The notes under the pieces: generated by a model
Seen by the model: only the letters and a program-made list of their open reading frames with translations
The model's database searches: none
Told to the model about the DNA's origin: nothing
Shown: piece after piece, positions 6,145 through 58,792 of the stretch
Position numbering within the stretch: the stretch's first letter is position 1
Layout of the letters: each line of letters starts with the position of its first letter
Made by a program: the position numbers and the translations under genes
NCBI GenBank assembly: GCA_024998685.1
Contig: JACOEH010000020.1
Coordinates: forward strand, 1 to 64,000
DNA: 64,000 bases
Direction: 5' to 3'
Source: Nitrospira sp.
GTDB lineage: Bacteria > Nitrospirota > Nitrospiria > Nitrospirales > Nitrospiraceae

Positions 6145-8070
6145 CTAGCCCTGGCTCTTGAAAAACACCGCCGCCAGGGCGGGAACCGTCACGGTCAATG
6201 AATGGGACCTCGCGTGCAGCGGCACCGGCTCAGCATTGACGCCGCCTCCGTTACCCCAGTTGCCGCCTCCATACCAGGAAGAATCGCTGTTGAGAATTTC
6301 CTGCCAGTATCCCCCGCGTGGCACCCCCACCCGGTAATTCGGCTGCGGCACCGGCGTGAAATTGCACACCACTAGGATAATGTCCTGCGTCGTGTGGCCC
6401 TTGCGGATCAGACTGATGACGCTCGACTCCGCATCGTTACAGTCGATCCACTCAAATCCATGGGGAGTCACATCGTCTTCATGCAGAGCCCGTTCGGTCC
6501 GATACACACGGTTGAGATCCGCAACCCATCGCTGAATACCAAGATGGCTCGCATGCTGCAATTGCTCCCATTCCAATTGGCCGTCGTGGGTCCATTCCGC
6601 GCGTTGAGCAATCTCTCCACCCATGAAGAGCAGCTTCTTGGCCGCCTGCGCGTACATGTACCCGAACAGCACACGGAGATTGGCGAACTTCTGCCAGTCG
6701 TCTCCCGGCATCTTTTCGAGCAGCGAGCGCTTCCCATATACCACTTCGTCATGAGACAGCGGCAGGATGAAATTCTCGTGAAACGCATAGAGCATGCGAA
6801 ACGTGAGATTCTGGTGGTGATAGCGCCGGTAGATCGGATCGGTCTGCATGTATTTCAAGGTGTCATGCATCCAGCCCATATCCCACTTCAGGCCGAAGCC
6901 CAACCCGCCCACGTAGCCTGGGCGCGAGACAGCCGGCCAGGAAGTAGATTCCTCCGCCGTGGTCTGCACATCCGGATACCGCGTGTAGACTTCCTCGTTG
7001 AATCGTCGCAGAAAGGCGACCGCATCCAAATTCTCTCGCCCACCGTATTGGTTCGGAATCCATTCCCCTTCCTTCCGCGCATAATCCAAATACAGCATCG
7101 ACGCGACCGCATCGACCCGCAGTCCGTCGATATGGTACTTGTCGAGCCAGAACAGCGCGCTGCTGATCAAGAAGCTGCGCACCTCATTACGGCCGAAGTT
7201 GAAGATGAAGGTGTTCCATTCCGGATGAAACCCCTGCTTCGGATGCGCATGCTCATACAGGTGCGTTCCGTCGAAGTAACCGAGTCCATGCTCATCAGTG
7301 GGAAAATGCGACGGCACCCAATCGAGAATCACGCCGATGCCGTGCTGGTGCAGGATGTCGATCAAATACATGAGATCTTGAGGCGTGCCGTAATTGCCGG
7401 AGGGCGCAAAATACCCGGTGGTTTGGTAGCCCCATGACCCGAAGAAGGGATGGTCCATCAGCGGGAGAAACTCGACATGGGTAAATCCCATCTGCTTGAC
7501 ATATTCCGCCAACGGCACCGCCATCTCGCGATAACTGAGGGAGCGATGGCCTTCCTCGGCCACCCGTCTCCATGACCCGACATGCATTTCATAGATCGCC
7601 ATGGGCGCGGTGAGCGCATTCCGGTCCCGTCGTTGCTTCATCCAATCCGCATCGTTCCACTCGTAGGCCAGGTCCCACACGATCGAAGCGGTCTTCGGAG
7701 GAATCTCGTTGAAGAGCGACAGAGGGTCTGCCTTATCCACGCGATAGCCGTTGAAGCGCGAACGAATGTGATACTTGTACAGAGTACCGACTCCGATGCC
7801 GGGAATGAACCCTTCCCAAATTCCGCTGCTCCCACGAGGGTTCAGATAATGCGCATCCTGTTTCCAGTCGTTAAATGAGCCGATCACGGACACCCGCTCG
7901 GCATCCGGAGCCCAGACCGCGAAGAATGTTCCATCCTGTCCGTTCACACGGCCCGGATGCGCTCCCAGTTTCTCGTAGAGATTGACCAATGACCCTTCGT
8001 TGAACAGATACAAATCGTCGCGCGTCAGCCTCGTCGGTTCATCCACAGTCATCATCGCTCCCTGTGTCAT
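6145..8070 (-). CDS. glgB: 1,4-alpha-glucan branching enzyme (GH13)
   Basis: 641 aa. Transfers alpha-1,4 glucan segments to alpha-1,6 positions during glycogen-like polymer synthesis. A CBM48 module lies at about 36-120 (LGAHPGRV, FFAVWAPDAERVSVIGSFND), then the GH13 barrel with DWVPSHFPTDEHGL, the nucleophile region GLRVDAVASMLYLDY (Asp near 318), the acid/base TTAEESTSWP (Glu near 371) and SHDEVVYGK (Asp near 439), and a C-terminal beta domain. It is shorter than E. coli GlgB, lacking the extra N-terminal domain. It is last in the minus-strand block glgE-mak-glgB, so it branches the chains GlgE builds. Confidence 0.97.
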   Translation of the reverse strand: MTQGAMMTVDEPTRLTRDDLYLFNEGSLVNLYEKLGAHPGRVNGQDGTFFAVWAPDAERVSVIGSFNDWKQDAHYLNPRGSSGIWEGFIPGIGVGTLYKYHIRSRFNGYRVDKADPLSLFNEIPPKTASIVWDLAYEWNDADWMKQRRDRNALTAPMAIYEMHVGSWRRVAEEGHRSLSYREMAVPLAEYVKQMGFTHVEFLPLMDHPFFGSWGYQTTGYFAPSGNYGTPQDLMYLIDILHQHGIGVILDWVPSHFPTDEHGLGYFDGTHLYEHAHPKQGFHPEWNTFIFNFGRNEVRSFLISSALFWLDKYHIDGLRVDAVASMLYLDYARKEGEWIPNQYGGRENLDAVAFLRRFNEEVYTRYPDVQTTAEESTSWPAVSRPGYVGGLGFGLKWDMGWMHDTLKYMQTDPIYRRYHHQNLTFRMLYAFHENFILPLSHDEVVYGKRSLLEKMPGDDWQKFANLRVLFGYMYAQAAKKLLFMGGEIAQRAEWTHDGQLEWEQLQHASHLGIQRWVADLNRVYRTERALHEDDVTPHGFEWIDCNDAESSVISLIRKGHTTQDIILVVCNFTPVPQPNYRVGVPRGGYWQEILNSDSSWYGGGNWGNGGGVNAEPVPLHARSHSLTVTVPALAAVFFKSQG

Positions 8071-8084
8071 CCGTTCACTCCATA

Positions 8085-8130
8085 GTTCTGAATTCTGAAA
8101 TAATCCTCACCAATCGAATTCAGAATTCAT
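8085..8130. repeat. Inverted repeat in the glgB-mak gap
   Basis: The gap between mak and glgB contains overlapping GAATTC-based inverted repeats (TTCTGAATTCTGAA facing GAATTCAGAATTC). It could form an mRNA hairpin that separates or tunes expression of the two genes; there is no T-run to call it a terminator. Confidence 0.45.
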
Positions 8131-9698
8131 GTAGGTTGTGCGAGCTGAAGTAGTCCGCTCAGTGGAATCCCGGCCCACGAAGGCCGGTTGTTCAGTTCAT
8201 AACTCAGTTCATAACAGGCCTTTTCGATCAAATAGGCATCCAGAAGCATGTCGCGGTCATCGGACTGCTCCGGAAGGAATGGGACCTTTCCCGTTGTCTC
8301 TGTATAGCCGGATAAAAAAGCATCCGCCGCCGACCGATACCATTGCCTCATCCGTTGTTCCAGCTCGGATCGCCGGCGCCGCTCGTCGCCGCCGGACCGA
8401 CTTCCCACCCGATCAAGCGCCGCACAAGCGGCATAGTGGAACGATCGGATCATTCCCGCCACATCGACGATCGGGACATGTTTCACGCGCCGCTCCGCCA
8501 ATGGTCTGGCCGGCTCGCCCTCAAAATCAATAATTACGAAATCTCGGCCTGTATACAAAACCTGACCCAAATGAAAATCACCGTGGCATCGAATTCTGAC
8601 CGCCTGAGGATTCCGCTTGCTCGGAGCCTCCAGCCGGGACAGCAATACGGCTTTCGATTCGAGCACGAGAGTCGCCAGCCGCCGGTTCGGTCCATCAACA
8701 TCCTGAAGCCGTCGACCAAGCAATACCAGCGAGTCTTCGACGGAGCGCGTCATGCGATCCCGCAACGATTGCCAATAGCCAGAATCACATGGCTCCGGCG
8801 CAAACGCCGGATCGGCGGTGTCCTGTGCCAAGGCGAGGTGTAGTTCAGCGGTCCGACGTCCAAGCAGGGCTGCAGCATCGGCGTAGACGCTGCTTGGACC
8901 CATGGACGAGCCTGGACTATTCATCAGTTCTGCTTCCAATTCGCTCAGCGTGAATCGCCAAGCATCACCTTGATTCTCGACGAACCGATGCACAATCGCA
9001 ACCGTGCCCGGCTGTTGGTCGGGTCTTACATATTCCAATGAACCAAGCACGGCGGGACTGTGAGCATATCCGCGCGCCGTTAATACTCTGCTGATCTCCA
9101 GATCGGGATTGGTTCCTGCTTCGAAACGCCGATAGAGCTTCAGCATCGCGTGACGACCGAACCTCACAGAGGTATTGCTTTGCTCTCCTTGCATGACGGA
9201 CGAGTCCGCCGATGCCGCTTCTACAATGGCCTGTGAGAAGACTTGGGTAGAGGCAGCATAAAGCGTCCCCTCCTCGCCTTGAAATCTCTCCTCCTTCCGA
9301 ATCGCCTGCAGCAATGCTCGGGTAGAGTCATGATCCCACAGGGCATCATGCAACAATCCGTTGCGGTCCTCGCTCCGGCCGGCAATGGTCACCTCTGCCA
9401 ACACCGCCTCCGGATGAATTTGCTGTATCCGCAATGCCCGTTCACCCGCCGAAGCGGTGAGTACCATCGTATAGACATCCTGGCCGCCGTCTTCATAGGA
9501 GACGTCGATGAAGACCATGACCATGGGATGGACGTCTGTGAGAAGAGGAATCGCCTCTTTGATGTGAACCGCCGCAATCGTTCTTGCCTTGCCTCCATAC
9601 CATCGAGCGGACGAGATGGCCGACGGCAGCAGCGCTTCAAGCGCGCCGACAGTATCTCGGTCGAGCAGCCGCTCCCAATTGTCTTTGATGGTCAACAT
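8127..9698 (-). CDS. mak: Maltokinase (Mak/Pep2 type)
   Basis: 523 aa. Phosphorylates maltose with ATP to alpha-maltose 1-phosphate, the donor for GlgE. The N-terminal cap has the family hallmark SARWYGGKARTIAA. The kinase-like C-terminal lobe holds the catalytic motif CHGDFHLGQVLYTGRDF followed by the metal-binding IDFEGEPARPLAERR, and the late SYELNNRPSWAGIPL motif near the end. In many bacteria Mak is fused to TreS; here it is free and treS lies about 8 kb away. Starts ATG 9698 just after glgE ends, same strand. Confidence 0.93.
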   Translation of the reverse strand: MLTIKDNWERLLDRDTVGALEALLPSAISSARWYGGKARTIAAVHIKEAIPLLTDVHPMVMVFIDVSYEDGGQDVYTMVLTASAGERALRIQQIHPEAVLAEVTIAGRSEDRNGLLHDALWDHDSTRALLQAIRKEERFQGEEGTLYAASTQVFSQAIVEAASADSSVMQGEQSNTSVRFGRHAMLKLYRRFEAGTNPDLEISRVLTARGYAHSPAVLGSLEYVRPDQQPGTVAIVHRFVENQGDAWRFTLSELEAELMNSPGSSMGPSSVYADAAALLGRRTAELHLALAQDTADPAFAPEPCDSGYWQSLRDRMTRSVEDSLVLLGRRLQDVDGPNRRLATLVLESKAVLLSRLEAPSKRNPQAVRIRCHGDFHLGQVLYTGRDFVIIDFEGEPARPLAERRVKHVPIVDVAGMIRSFHYAACAALDRVGSRSGGDERRRRSELEQRMRQWYRSAADAFLSGYTETTGKVPFLPEQSDDRDMLLDAYLIEKACYELSYELNNRPSWAGIPLSGLLQLAQPT

Positions 9699-54347: not shown

Positions 54348-54890
54348 ATGAGACGCTCGTACATATTTCAAGCACTCAGTGGTTGGTGCACAATTCTCTT
54401 GCTCTCGGCAGTTGTTGCATCAGCCGGCGATCTGAAGAAAGGAGCATCAGCGATGACCGTTTCGGATGGGAAACAAGTGACCTTGGAATACACCATGAAA
54501 CTGGACGATCAATCAGTCGTCGATACCAACGTCGGCGGGGAGCCGTTGAAAGTAACCCAGGGCAGTCACGAGGTCATTCCTGGGGTCGAGAAGGGACTCT
54601 CAGGGATGACGGTCGGAGAAAAAAAGCAGTTCACGATTGTCCCGGCCGATGGATATGGCACCGTCGATCCGAAAGCGTTTCAAGAAGTGGACAAGGATAT
54701 GGTGCCGCCAGATTCCCGAAAGGTCGGAATGCAGCTGGAGGGAAAAACCGTAGACGGCCGAAAGGTCTTTCCGCGGATTTCCGAGGTGAAGAACCAGACG
54801 GTCGTGCTCGACTTCAACCATCCGCTGGCCGGCAAGACACTCTACTTCGACGTCAAAGTCCTGGATGTCGCGCAAGCATCGCCGAGGTGA
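54348..54890 (+). CDS. Exported FKBP/SlyD-like peptidyl-prolyl isomerase (copy 1)
   Basis: 180 aa. Signal peptide (WCTILLLSAVVASAGDLKKG) with a type I cleavage site, so soluble periplasmic. FKBP fold with insert-in-flap domain as in SlyD: KQVTLEYTMKLDDQSVVDTN, VIPGVEKGLSGMTVGEKKQF, GYGTVDPKAFQEVDKDMVPP, NHPLAGKTLYFDVKVLDV. Chaperone/prolyl isomerase for exported proteins. AGGAGG before ATG 54,348. Near-identical to the next gene, including upstream sequence; a tandem duplication. Confidence 0.93.
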   Translation: MRRSYIFQALSGWCTILLLSAVVASAGDLKKGASAMTVSDGKQVTLEYTMKLDDQSVVDTNVGGEPLKVTQGSHEVIPGVEKGLSGMTVGEKKQFTIVPADGYGTVDPKAFQEVDKDMVPPDSRKVGMQLEGKTVDGRKVFPRISEVKNQTVVLDFNHPLAGKTLYFDVKVLDVAQASPR

Positions 54891-55122: not shown

Positions 55123-55665
55123 ATGAGACGCCCATGCCTATTTTTTTCGCTGTCCGGTTGGAGCGCAGTTCTGTTGCTCTCGACTGTGGCGGCGTGCGCC
55201 GGAGAACAAAAGAAAGGAGTCTCACCGATGACCGTCTCGAACGGGAAACAAGTGACCTTAGAGTACACCCTGCAATTGGACGATCAATCCGTCGTCGATA
55301 CCAATGTCGGTAAGGAACCGTTGAAAGTAACTCAGGGCAGTCACCAAATCATTCCAGGGGTCGAGAAGCAGATCGAGGGTATGGCACCCGGTGAAAAAAA
55401 GAAGTTCTCGGTAGCCCCGACGGAGGGTTACGGCACCATCGATCCGAAAGCATTTCAGGAGATCGACAAAAAAATGGTACCGGCCGATGCCCAGAAGGTT
55501 GGGATGCAGTTGGAGGGTACCACCGCCGAGGGACGAAAGGTTTTTCCTCGTATTTCCGAGGTGAAAAACGAGACGGTCGTCCTGGACTTCAACCATCCGC
55601 TGGCCGGTAAGACACTCTACTTCGACGTCAAAGTCCTCGACGTCGCACAAGCCTCATCGAAGTAA
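55123..55665 (+). CDS. Exported FKBP/SlyD-like peptidyl-prolyl isomerase (copy 2, predicted lipoprotein)
   Basis: 180 aa, closely matching copy 1 over its full length (EYTLQLDDQSVVDTNVGKEP, VIPGVEKQIEGMAPGEKKKF, GYGTIDPKAFQEIDKKMVPA). In the signal peptide the Ser of VASAG in copy 1 is a Cys (TVAACAGEQ), giving a lipobox. This copy may be membrane-anchored while copy 1 is soluble. Upstream sequence of both genes is conserved, with the same AGGAGG. Period between the copies is 775 bases. Confidence 0.93.
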   Translation: MRRPCLFFSLSGWSAVLLLSTVAACAGEQKKGVSPMTVSNGKQVTLEYTLQLDDQSVVDTNVGKEPLKVTQGSHQIIPGVEKQIEGMAPGEKKKFSVAPTEGYGTIDPKAFQEIDKKMVPADAQKVGMQLEGTTAEGRKVFPRISEVKNETVVLDFNHPLAGKTLYFDVKVLDVAQASSK

Positions 55666-55698: not shown

Positions 55699-55908
55699 AA
55701 GAGATGCTCCACTGTCCTGAAGGTTTATAGGTCGCCTGCTGAATTTTTCTCCGACCGGACGACTTCAGGGAACCTCGTAGAGAACACGCTGGACAGCTCA
55801 AACAACTCTGGGAAGAGTCCTTTCGATCCGCTGTAATCCTCTCGCCTACTCCTTCTTTCAACGTCTAAGGACAACAACGATCGCCAGGCTGGCGTAGCGC
55901 ATAATCCT

Positions 55909-56745
55909 CTAGCTCAGAAACAGCTGATCGAACGACGCGCGCCGCCCTTCCAACTGCGGGATTTGATCGAAATCCTCCTGCTTCAGTTTTGCGGCGGTTC
56001 GTTGATGCAATTCTCGGTAGGTCAGCTTGCCTTCAGCTTCTTTGATCGACTCAACCAGATAATAGGTCAGAGCCCCATTGTAAGATCCGCCGATATGCGC
56101 ATCGGCGGAGGTCTGCGTATCGCGGCAGCCGGTGATCAACAGCTCACCAATATCAGCATCGACGATATCGCTCTTTCGCTTGCGTCCACGAGACGCCTTT
56201 CTGAGTTGCCCTCGAAGCGTCCCGCGTAGTTTCCGGCCGGATTCCGTCGCCATGAGATCCAAGGGACACGGAAGGTACCGTTGTCTTCTGGGAGCGTCCA
56301 ACGGATTCATCACGCGCGTGATGGTGCCGGAGTGACAGCAGTCCATGATGACAGTCAGGTTTACTCCCGACCGAAGTTTCCCCAAGGTCTTCCGCAGCCA
56401 GTCGTCACGGAAAGGATCCTTCCAATCCAGATCGGTCGGACACAAGATCTCATCGCGCTTATCCGCCTCATCTCCATTGTCGTCCGGTACGTTTGACCCA
56501 TGACCGGAATAATGGAGGAGCAGGACATCGCCCTTCTTCCCTTTCGTAATCAGTTTTTTAATGGCTCGTTCCATCGCTTTTTTTGTCGCTTGGGCATCCG
56601 TCAGGATCGTGATGTCCTTGTCGTCAAAGCCGTAATAGGTCGTCAGCGCCCCCATCAGATTCTTCACGTCATTGACGCACCCTTGGAGATCAGCGCCGGG
56701 CACTTGATACTTATTGATCCCGATGAGCACGGCTCGTTTGGCCAT
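55909..56745 (-). CDS. Caspase-family (C14) peptidase
   Basis: 278 aa. Starts KRAVLIGINKYQVPGADLQG, then CVNDVKNLMGALTTYYGFDD, catalytic His in LLLHYSGHGSNVPDDNGDE, and catalytic Cys in LTVIMDCCHSGTITRVM; p10-like part with GELLITGCRDTQTSADAHIG, SYNGALTYYLVESIKE. Both catalytic residues are present, so likely active. A short basic loop (RKASRGRKRKSD) separates the two parts. ATG 56,745 has AAAGGAG nearby. Last gene of a minus-strand set with a truncated MPFG-type gene and a DUF4231 membrane gene, a pairing often seen in conflict-type systems. Confidence 0.92.
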   Translation of the reverse strand: MAKRAVLIGINKYQVPGADLQGCVNDVKNLMGALTTYYGFDDKDITILTDAQATKKAMERAIKKLITKGKKGDVLLLHYSGHGSNVPDDNGDEADKRDEILCPTDLDWKDPFRDDWLRKTLGKLRSGVNLTVIMDCCHSGTITRVMNPLDAPRRQRYLPCPLDLMATESGRKLRGTLRGQLRKASRGRKRKSDIVDADIGELLITGCRDTQTSADAHIGGSYNGALTYYLVESIKEAEGKLTYRELHQRTAAKLKQEDFDQIPQLEGRRASFDQLFLS

Positions 56746-57028
56746 ATCTTCTCCTTTCTGTGACTGAATACAAGACGGACCGAGCGAAATTCGAGATATG
56801 TGTGACCTGAGCAATCATCTTGCCAGTACACATTTACACGAAGAGACTTTGGTTGATTGCATTCCTATGTACTCTTTCTAAGGATTTTTTTCATTATGGT
56901 TTCTTCAATGAGGGTGAAGAAGTTATAGAACCACAGCGCGGTTGGCTCGAAGCAACGGGATGGAGAATCCAAACCGATACGGTACTGTATCGAAATAGGT
57001 ACGATAAGGTCGGTGGATATTCATAAAG

Positions 57029-57250
57029 TCATCCAGTCTGACTGCAAGACCAGGAAGCGAGATCGACTATTCCGATGTCCGTACGAATGTCGCCAGCTCG
57101 CTCCTCTTTGTCGGCTCGGAACACTTCCAGCCCCATAACCTCCAGCGCCGGCTTGACCAGCTCCGCATAGATGCGATTGAAATCAATCTCCTTGCCTTGG
57201 CTGTCCCTCTTCATGCCAAACGGCATCGCGACAAAGGCGTGGGGTTTCAT
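57029..57250 (-). pseudogene. N-terminal fragment of a MPFG-type (TIR/deoxyribosyltransferase-like) protein
   Basis: 73 aa: KPHAFVAMPFGMKRDSQGKE, IDFNRIYAELVKPALEVMGL, EVFRADKEERAGDIRTD. This is the Rossmannoid start of the proteins that carry DUF4071/TPR C-terminal parts. Normally hundreds of residues follow, beginning with a FQELL-like helix. Here at GDIRTD the match stops and the frame ends within 15 codons. The 280 bases on to the caspase start contain no recognisable remainder, so a deletion took the rest. Confidence 0.65.
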
Positions 57251-57289
57251 GCAATGCTCTTCTCAATTGGCCCGTTCAATCTTGCGACT

Positions 57290-57841
57290 TCACTGCACAG
57301 AGGGTGTCTTGTCATCAGAGTCCTTTTTTTCTTTGAACACCTGCGTGATGTAGGACTCGACTTCTTCACGGCTCAGCTCTTCGACCCGCGCCGCAAAGGC
57401 TGGGTAAGCTTGAATGTGGGTTTGGTTGGCGTAGCCTCCGCTCAACTGAAGAAACTGCCAGCCTTCGCTTTTGAGCGACTCGGTCATATGTCGATAATGC
57501 CGCCATCGTTCGCCATAGCGAAAGAATTCCTCCACGGCCGCGCTCAACGCCACCGCAAGGCTGACGATGAACGTGAGTGTTTTGACCAGAGGTGCAACGT
57601 CATCGCCGACATTCAGGCTGACCAGCGCCGGCACGATCACGCCTCCGATGATCGTCGCCAGACGCAGCCTCCGATACCACCATACGGACTCCTGCGCCTT
57701 CCCATCCATCCAAATCACCAGCTCCAACCACCGCGCCCGCATGAACTCCTTATTCAGTTCCGGCAAATCCAGGGATGCGATGAGCTTATCCATCTCGGCC
57801 CGCATGTGCTCATGGTCGGTCGTCTTATTGATGCTATTCAT
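57290..57841 (-). CDS. DUF4231 (SLATT-like) two-TM membrane protein
   Basis: 183 aa. ASLDLPELNKEFMRARWLEL, WWYRRLRLATIIGGVIVPAL and LTFIVSLAVALSAAVEEFFR form the double helix of the SLATT/DUF4231 type; then a helical tail GERWRHYRHMTESLKSEGWQ and YITQVFKEKKDSDD. These domains are predicted pore formers in nucleotide-triggered conflict systems. The start ATG 57,841 has GGAGGAG just before it; the longer frame from 57,865 does not. First gene of the three-gene set. Confidence 0.8.
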   Translation of the reverse strand: MNSINKTTDHEHMRAEMDKLIASLDLPELNKEFMRARWLELVIWMDGKAQESVWWYRRLRLATIIGGVIVPALVSLNVGDDVAPLVKTLTFIVSLAVALSAAVEEFFRYGERWRHYRHMTESLKSEGWQFLQLSGGYANQTHIQAYPAFAARVEELSREEVESYITQVFKEKKDSDDKTPSVQ

Positions 57842-58147
57842 AGGCTCCTCCATCGAGTCCTTCACGACGAAAGAAAGGTCACGCAGTTATCACAGTCTTC
57901 GTTTTCAAGCGTAAAGAGTCCATGTCCGACAGAAACCCTGCTCTTCATACCGACAATTTGCACAGGCTCTGAAAAGGCAAGAAAGGAGCTATGATGGGAT
58001 GAATGAGGGAAGCGGCGATAAAGGTGTGTCGCCATAACGAGGTATCAAACGAGATGCAGCGTATACCAGTATAGATACCATAAGGAGAGCCGGTCACGAA
58101 ACCGGAGTTTGTTCGATCGTTCCTTCCTCAGCCTGTGTTTTCAAGTT
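57842..58147. other. Intergenic region
   Basis: About 305 bases between the two minus-strand genes. No gene seen; it includes the upstream control region of the DUF4231 gene. An AAAGGAG at 57,985 is followed only by a three-codon frame. Confidence 0.4.
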
Positions 58148-58792
58148 CTACTTTGTCTTCCTCACCACCAGAATTCCATCACGAATCGTGACCAGTACGG
58201 CCGTCACTCGGGGGTCAGTTGAAACGGTACGATTCAGCTCCTGGATGGCGGCGGTGGATTCGTCCGGCGGTGGCCGTTTCAAAACTTCTCCGCTCCACAG
58301 TACGTTATCGATCAAGATGACGCCGTTCGGAGCAAGCAGATCGAGCGAACGGCGGTAGTAATTGAGGTAATTGGTTTTGTCGGCATCAATGAAGATGAGA
58401 TCGAATGGGCCGGAGAGGGTACGCATGGTGTGGAGCGCAGGCCCCATGCGGATACTGATTTTGCTGCCACATGACGCTTGCGCGATATAGCGCCTGGCCA
58501 CCGCCGCCGCTTTCTCATCAATATCGCAGGTAATGACGGTTCCATCCTCCGGTAGGGCTTCAGCGAAGCAGAGGGCGCTGTAGCCGGTAAACATGCCGAT
58601 TTCGAGTACCCGCTTCGCACCGACCAGTTGCGTCATCGTTTTCAGAAACGCCCCTTCCAAGGGACCGACCAGCATCTGGGGGTATTCCATGGTCTGATGG
58701 GTTTCTTCGCGCAGCGCGCGACAGACCGACGACTCCGGGATGGAATGGGTTTCGGCGTAGGCTTCGATGTCGGACGGAACCAACCGGTTCAT
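58148..58792 (-). CDS. Class I SAM-dependent O-methyltransferase (COMT-like)
   Basis: 214 aa. Rossmann methylase of the catechol/caffeoyl-CoA type: QMLVGPLEGAFLKTMTQLVG, RVLEIGMFTGYSALCFAEAL (motif I), TVITCDIDEKAAAVARRYIA, FDLIFIDADKTNYLNYYRRS (metal-binding Asp) and LAPNGVILIDNVLWSGEVLK. Cytoplasmic, divalent-metal dependent. AAAGGA sits before ATG 58,792. Divergent from the M32 peptidase gene. Confidence 0.94.
   Translation of the reverse strand: MNRLVPSDIEAYAETHSIPESSVCRALREETHQTMEYPQMLVGPLEGAFLKTMTQLVGAKRVLEIGMFTGYSALCFAEALPEDGTVITCDIDEKAAAVARRYIAQASCGSKISIRMGPALHTMRTLSGPFDLIFIDADKTNYLNYYRRSLDLLAPNGVILIDNVLWSGEVLKRPPPDESTAAIQELNRTVSTDPRVTAVLVTIRDGILVVRKTK

Follow-up and report, generated by a model that had tools for sequence, protein, structure and literature searches.

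A putative degraded conflict operon in Nitrospira that retains an orthocaspase and a SLATT gene beside the remnant of a predicted DrHyd/TPR-S/SLOG sensor

Results

The window, a stretch of 64,000 nucleotides, belongs to a genome of 4.8 Mb whose nearest relatives are Nitrospira. Three adjacent genes form an operon on its minus strand, in the order SLATT/DUF4231 (57290-57865), a 73-aa ORF (57029-57250) and Peptidase_C14 (55909-56745), and all three ORFs lie where a first-pass annotation had placed them. The island that contains them is bordered on the left by an O-methyltransferase gene (58148-58792, minus strand) and on the right by a gene for an FKBP-type peptidyl-prolyl isomerase (55123-55665, plus strand); both flanks are conserved in relatives and lie outside the system. 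At the right border, FKBP-type isomerase genes of closely similar sequence are present as a tandem pair (54348-54890 and 55123-55665).

The outer genes of the operon had both been described as intact, and our analysis agrees. The first encodes a two-TM protein of 183 aa if translation begins at the ATG at 57841, or 191 aa from the GTG at 57865, the start that is supported by relatives. Matches to PF14015 (DUF4231; E 6.3e-29, 100.9 bits against a cut-off of 24.7) and to NCBIfam SLATT_1 (NF033634; 99.3 bits, cut-off 41) make its assignment to the SLATT family solid by curated cut-offs, two hydrophobic segments give hydropathy peaks at approximately residues 55-75 and 79-100, and relatives are 71-94% identical. 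SLATT proteins are predicted to be nucleotide-regulated pores, and DrHyd and SLOG domains are predicted to make or read such signals (PMC7159879; PMC9503650). The neighbouring or fused SLOG/SMODS gene of such systems is missing from the window, where it has been deleted; in relatives, the SLOG domain beside SLATT is either the C-terminus of the sensor described below, with a YpsA fold, or a stand-alone protein (loci L188 and L189). A 265-aa antisense ORF (57197-57994, plus strand) runs across the SLATT gene and is long enough to displace it in a longest-ORF call, but is most likely spurious.

The third gene encodes a caspase-type protease of 278 aa from its ATG; a TTG start that would give 301 aa is not common to relatives. 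The product matches PF00656 (Peptidase_C14) at E 3.5e-35, a family assignment that is likewise solid by curated cut-offs, and the dyad of His82 (HYSGHG) and Cys137 (DCCHSG), which the first-pass annotation had singled out, is invariant in 20 relatives. Among PDB sequences, metacaspase-4 matches in two stretches that cover both of its parts, p20 and a p10-like part. Given the His-Cys dyad and this alignment, orthocaspase, the name used for prokaryotic members (PMC6426788), is the proper term. On plasmids, the only caspase relatives found were 29-32% identical.

Between these genes, residues 1-59 of the 73-aa ORF are 73-85% identical to the N-termini of proteins of 648-661 aa in relatives (E down to 1e-31; 81-85% for several of the intact proteins), a similarity that lies far beyond chance, whereas the ORF itself has no match in Pfam, NCBIfam or PADLOC. 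It comprises codons 1-59 of approximately 658, followed by 14 junction codons. The middle gene had been taken for a fragment of an MPFG-type protein, as its match to the start of intact relatives bears out, and an intact form of about 400-500 aa had been expected, which is too short: the intact protein has approximately 650-660 aa. Comparison with the intact locus of G027 (L063) by blastn showed that homology ends at 57075 and restarts at approximately 57003, 15 bp past the intact stop codon, and that approximately 1.8 kb of the gene is replaced by 71 bp (57004-57074, minus strand). A break had been predicted at approximately 57,067; a deletion junction does lie there, although homology actually ends 8 bp away.

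The same scar sequence is present in three other Nitrospira genomes (G001, G023 and G044). The window remnant covers the two initial strands and helices of the DrHyd fold and stops at family residue 59, so that the predicted catalytic Glu83 and roughly half of the Rossmann fold are missing; TPR-S and SLOG are deleted. All family-invariant residues within the 59 codons are kept. Decay has gone further in G023 and G044, whose remnants are frameshifted and no longer have a start codon or the MPFG motif; the G001 remnant carries a stop codon. Private changes could be counted in the two remnants with a readable frame: 7 nonsynonymous and 0 synonymous in the window, 7 nonsynonymous and 1 synonymous in G001. 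The sum for these two (14N:1S) differs from that of eleven intact copies (22N:34S; Fisher p 2.5e-4), as does the window remnant alone (Fisher p 0.003). Since the private changes are nearly all nonsynonymous, we read the 73-aa ORF as a pseudogene remnant of a predicted DrHyd/TPR-S/SLOG sensor, and the earlier proposal that the module has lost its central component is borne out by an internal deletion in a gene that is intact in relatives.

Two other explanations of the short ORF were rejected. An artefact of gene calling or assembly does not account for the same scar in three other genomes, of which G023 is a single-contig assembly. Nor is 73 aa a natural short form: this length is not conserved in any relative, and the short members at the site (195-209 aa) consist of the C-terminal SLOG domain alone, not the N-terminus. 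No intact sensor was found elsewhere in the host genome, nor a second copy of its SLOG domain at E 1e-5; the paralogues present there are a 443-aa DrHyd/TPR protein without SLOG (contig C18) and a 343-aa partial one (C16).

The intact protein was modelled with AlphaFold2 from 35 sequences (mean pLDDT 86), giving three parts. TPR proteins took up the Foldseek list for the whole model, and the N-terminal 175 residues were therefore folded and searched alone; their matching part (residues 1-147) resembles human DNPH1 (Z 13.8, 2.6 A, 122 aligned) and MilB (Z 13.3), as well as nucleoside deoxyribosyltransferases, and TIR domains follow closely. All 37 intact sensor sequences compared have Glu83, within the motif YELG, and solved matches include the E103A mutant of MilB and the E88A mutant of a deoxyribosyltransferase, proteins with a Glu at the active site; we predict that Glu83 is the catalytic equivalent, as assigned by motif position rather than superposition. 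Residues 181-471 of the model best match the central regulatory region of ASK1 (5ulm; Z 16.9, 3.8 A, 262 aligned), and the protein matches TPR-S (PF20308, E 6.9e-21) and MAP3K_TRAF_bd (PF13281, E 7.5e-10) in Pfam. Residues 474-658 match Bacillus subtilis YpsA (2nx2; Z 15.1, 3.3 A, 158 aligned), a protein of the SLOG superfamily (PMC6459960 for the superfamily). From these fold and profile matches, the intact middle protein is predicted to join a DNPH1/MilB-like DrHyd domain, an ASK1-like TPR-S scaffold and a YpsA-like SLOG domain.

Among 147 relatives searched, the fragment finds a match in 27, and 29 encode a close orthocaspase. Where contigs were long enough to judge, the site is fixed, between a pair of genes for an M32 carboxypeptidase and the O-methyltransferase on one side and the FKBP isomerase on the other. 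SLATT, full-length sensor and orthocaspase occur there in this order in six genomes (G017, G027, G030, G057, G063 and G078, of which G057 and G078 are nearly identical), so that the recurrent synteny suggested for the three genes, with an intact middle gene, does exist in Nitrospira. Other genomes carry SLATT alone (G064), SLATT with a stand-alone SLOG and a patatin (G007, G061), or a stand-alone SLOG with caspase and CHAT (G004, G011, G069). Because such varied arrangements share one site, the O-methyltransferase-FKBP interval is a module-swapping hotspot. Whether intact versions lie in defence islands had been posed as a check, and the site is a variable island rich in conflict genes.

Several further arrangements were observed. 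In L073 (G012:C2, 5279-15900), the sensor is split between approximately codon 72 and its C-terminal part by some 10 kb holding other DrHyd-type and unidentified genes, so that islands seem to insert into the sensor gene itself. In L098 (G019:C369, 5311-6009), an independent truncation after codon 37 lies between SLATT and FKBP, with no caspase there, and L064 (G010:C15, 6004-7520) represents another independent loss, with SLATT leading straight into orthocaspase and LCAT/CHAT and the sensor cleanly missing. Genes for lipoprotein-like and coiled-coil proteins (303 and 142 aa) precede the orthocaspase in L084 (G067, 8023-9392), with relatives in L081, L085 and L086; most of them do not reach a Pfam cut-off, and they are possibly a further effector or adaptor pair.

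In four of the six genomes with the complete order, the orthocaspase is followed by a fourth gene, encoding an LCAT-type alpha/beta-hydrolase joined to a CHAT protease, and in three of these four the product also has an M17_N-like domain match. The orthocaspase-LCAT/CHAT pair is the most frequent arrangement; of the 29 genomes that encode a close orthocaspase, 20 have it. In the window, neither the fourth gene nor a patatin could be convincingly traced between caspase and FKBP; the interval yielded only an 85-bp relic (55778-55862, minus strand), which is 80% identical (blastn E 1e-10) to the caspase-LCAT/CHAT spacer of G001 (L068, 5420-5503). Because these 85 bp following the caspase match that spacer, they suggest that the fourth gene was formerly part of the window locus. 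The three-gene module of the first-pass annotation was thus correct as to SLATT, fragment and caspase but missed the lipase-protease gene, which has been lost as well.

A paralogue of the fourth gene, 31% identical and of LCAT/M17_N/CHAT composition, is present on contig C74 of the host genome, and might partner the orthocaspase in trans. Stand-alone proteins of this composition, approximately 1040 aa in length, are encoded there (L185, G000:C74, 8338-11463) and in G023 (L186, G023:C1, 7569-10685), in a chromosomal context common to both, with no defence island visible around them.

A scan of 84,980 species genomes identified 300 stretches encoding relatives of the full sensor. Neighbourhoods were taken from the best 80 of these, which come from Nitrospirota, Beta- and Gammaproteobacteria, Chlorobi, Cyanobacteria and others, and 76 had room to judge. 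A patatin phospholipase lies within 500 bp of the sensor in 29 of the 76, and an orthocaspase directly downstream in 13, several of which then have the LCAT/CHAT gene; others of the 76 have TIR, SIR2-TIR with nSTAND-WD40, or TIR-nSTAND-WD40 proteins, and SLATT was seen beside the full sensor only in Nitrospira. The swapping of effectors beside the sensor therefore suggests that this sensor family works with interchangeable toxic effectors. By reasoning that is established for such systems, one unchanging sensor paired with toxic-type effectors that are exchanged usually marks a conflict system. In L143 (2255-8000), a 1,915-aa fusion of a DUF7379 hydrolase, LCAT, CHAT and a C-terminal TPR-S domain directly follows the sensor; the TPR-S scaffold domain is common to sensor and protease at this locus.

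Discussion

We consider it likely that the locus in the window is what remains of a four-gene conflict operon of Nitrospira, composed of SLATT, a DrHyd/TPR-S/SLOG sensor, an orthocaspase and an LCAT-lipase/CHAT-protease, which would operate as follows. In the intact operon, the TPR-S scaffold would sense a cue linked to an invader, and the DrHyd domain would then act on a nucleotide or NAD-type substrate, making or consuming a signal that the SLOG domain would bind. SLATT, as a predicted nucleotide-gated pore, together with the orthocaspase and the lipase/CHAT protein, would bring about membrane damage and proteolysis, and the infected cell would die or become dormant. In the window copy, loss of the sensor would break this chain. 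SLATT and orthocaspase have probably been retained because they serve a reduced function or respond to a different trigger, perhaps in concert with the stand-alone LCAT/CHAT paralogue on C74. The first-pass reading of a broken suicide-type defence set holds to the extent that the locus is a degraded member of a recurrent operon; its role in defence is one that we infer. PADLOC has no system model that covers the whole operon, and we found no description of it in the literature searched, of which coverage was partial.

Selection on the two retained genes bears on whether the locus still has any function. In the M32 tree, the window groups with G044 and G023, all three carrying the scar, and among these species dN/dS is 0.066-0.11 for the orthocaspase and 0.076-0.156 for SLATT, similar to the flanking housekeeping genes (0.075-0.11). 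Counts for caspase are 12N:32S between window and G023 and 15N:59S between window and G044, and for SLATT 14N:42S between window and G044; each caspase and SLATT pair departs from the neutral expectation at p of at most 1e-10. The trees of caspase, SLATT and flank differ, as do synonymous distances between window and G023 (caspase 0.18, SLATT 0.79, flank 0.39), from which we conclude that recombination has touched the locus and that part of the constraint may predate the loss. Since the caspase segment directly adjoins the scar, the caspases of these three species likely diverged after the deletion. SLATT and orthocaspase thus remain under purifying selection among the species that share the scar.

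These data weigh most directly on the idea of plain decay, according to which the module is dead as a whole and disappearing, and caspase and SLATT owe their intact state solely to the recency of the loss or to intact alleles brought back by recombination. Two of the four genes have already gone, the caspase tree differs from that of the flank, suggesting recombination, and the G001 orthocaspase carries an in-frame stop. A dead module is nevertheless difficult to reconcile with dN/dS values in both genes that resemble those of the flanks, or with SLATT as the sole gene at the site in G064 and beside SLOG and patatin in G007 and G061, and we regard decay as a rather doubtful account. We are still less inclined to see in the operon a stress or developmental signalling system of ASK1 type, in which protease and pore are regulated effectors rather than agents of defence. 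The nearest solved fold of the scaffold is that of human ASK1, a stress kinase, and the chromosomal gene for the LCAT/CHAT paralogue is conserved and lies apart from any visible island. The operon itself, however, occupies a variable island at one site, its presence is patchy (sensor matches in 27 and close caspases in 29 of 147 genomes), toxic-type effectors are swapped, and TIR, SIR2 and STAND proteins occur as neighbours. Finally, it is very improbable that the 73-aa protein is a functional stand-alone sensor, as the first-pass annotation had allowed, or a dominant-negative regulator, making SLATT, short protein and orthocaspase a minimal three-gene system: the ORF is open, has a start codon and keeps its family-invariant residues, but it stops short of Glu83 and the second half of the Rossmann fold, has a length conserved in no relative, has lost start and frame in G023 and G044 and acquired a stop in G001, and its private changes are almost all nonsynonymous.

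The degraded-operon reading can be extended. With sensor, reader and partner hydrolase lost, SLATT and orthocaspase could have been kept for a long time, under strong purifying selection, as a minimal two-gene effector pair that responds to a new trigger or to one of its own, such as a protease-gated pore, and the wider family could constitute a so far uncharacterised defence class pairing the DrHyd/TPR-S/SLOG sensor with interchangeable effectors; we put this forward tentatively, as a possibility that may well prove wrong. In either form, the operon brings together in one locus an ASK1-type scaffold, a caspase and a membrane pore, relatives of three parts of animal cell-death or stress pathways. 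The predicted combination of a nucleotide-processing enzyme and a nucleotide reader on one polypeptide with a scaffold offers a testable bacterial arrangement of sensor, signal and executioner. Together with its sister species, the window amounts to a natural experiment, in which the sensor is deleted and two predicted executioners are maintained, and which raises the question of what restrains and triggers them.

Comparison with known systems places the operon among several without making it equivalent to any. Bacterial caspases are found in the EACC1-caspase and MoxR/vWA conflict systems (Kaur et al. 2020, PMC7159879), with an alpha/beta-hydrolase partner as here. The present operon differs in having no EACC1, MoxR, vWA or VMAP genes: no EACC1-type match was found among the operon proteins scanned, and the window caspase scores 66 bits against the model for EACC1-associated caspases (NF047832; cut-off 140). 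Thoeris, with its TIR protein ThsB and SIR2-SLOG protein ThsA, also combines a TIR-like Rossmann enzyme with a SLOG signal reader. Here, in contrast, enzyme, reader and a TPR scaffold make up a single polypeptide, the effectors are encoded by genes of their own, and the ThsA and ThsB models match none of the window proteins, sensor, SLATT, caspase or fourth-gene proteins; a weak ThsB match was obtained only for an inserted TIR gene in one relative. CBASS with patatin or two-TM effectors shares the use of interchangeable effectors, patatin included, downstream of a presumed signal maker. The operon differs in lacking a CD-NTase (no CD-NTase or cyclase model of PADLOC, Pfam or NCBIfam matched among the window or operon proteins), so that DrHyd would be the enzyme, and the patatin relatives score 127 against NCBIfam CBASS_lipase, below its cut-off of 200.

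Bacterial relatives of the metazoan ASK signalosome were reportedly described by Burroughs and Aravind in 2020 (cited in PMC8195603). The sensor resembles these in its TPR-S (PF20308) and MAP3K_TRAF_bd (PF13281) matches and in the fold of the ASK1 regulatory region, and differs in having a C-terminal YpsA-like SLOG domain in place of a kinase and an operon with protease and pore effectors. Parts of the ASK signalosome derive from bacterial conflict systems (PMC8195603). A further comparison is with the nucleotide-centred SLATT/SLOG/SMODS conflict systems (Burroughs et al. 2015, as cited in PMC7159879 and PMC9503650), in which, as here, a two-TM SLATT gene lies beside a gene with SLOG-type and DrHyd domains and the predicted logic is that of a nucleotide signal opening a membrane effector. 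The operon departs from them in its YpsA-like SLOG, which shares a polypeptide with DrHyd and TPR-S, and in its additional orthocaspase and lipase/CHAT genes; moreover, the window copy lacks SLOG and is predicted to lack DrHyd catalysis. The DrHyd-TPR-S-SLOG family with its swapping effectors is a variant of predicted conflict systems.
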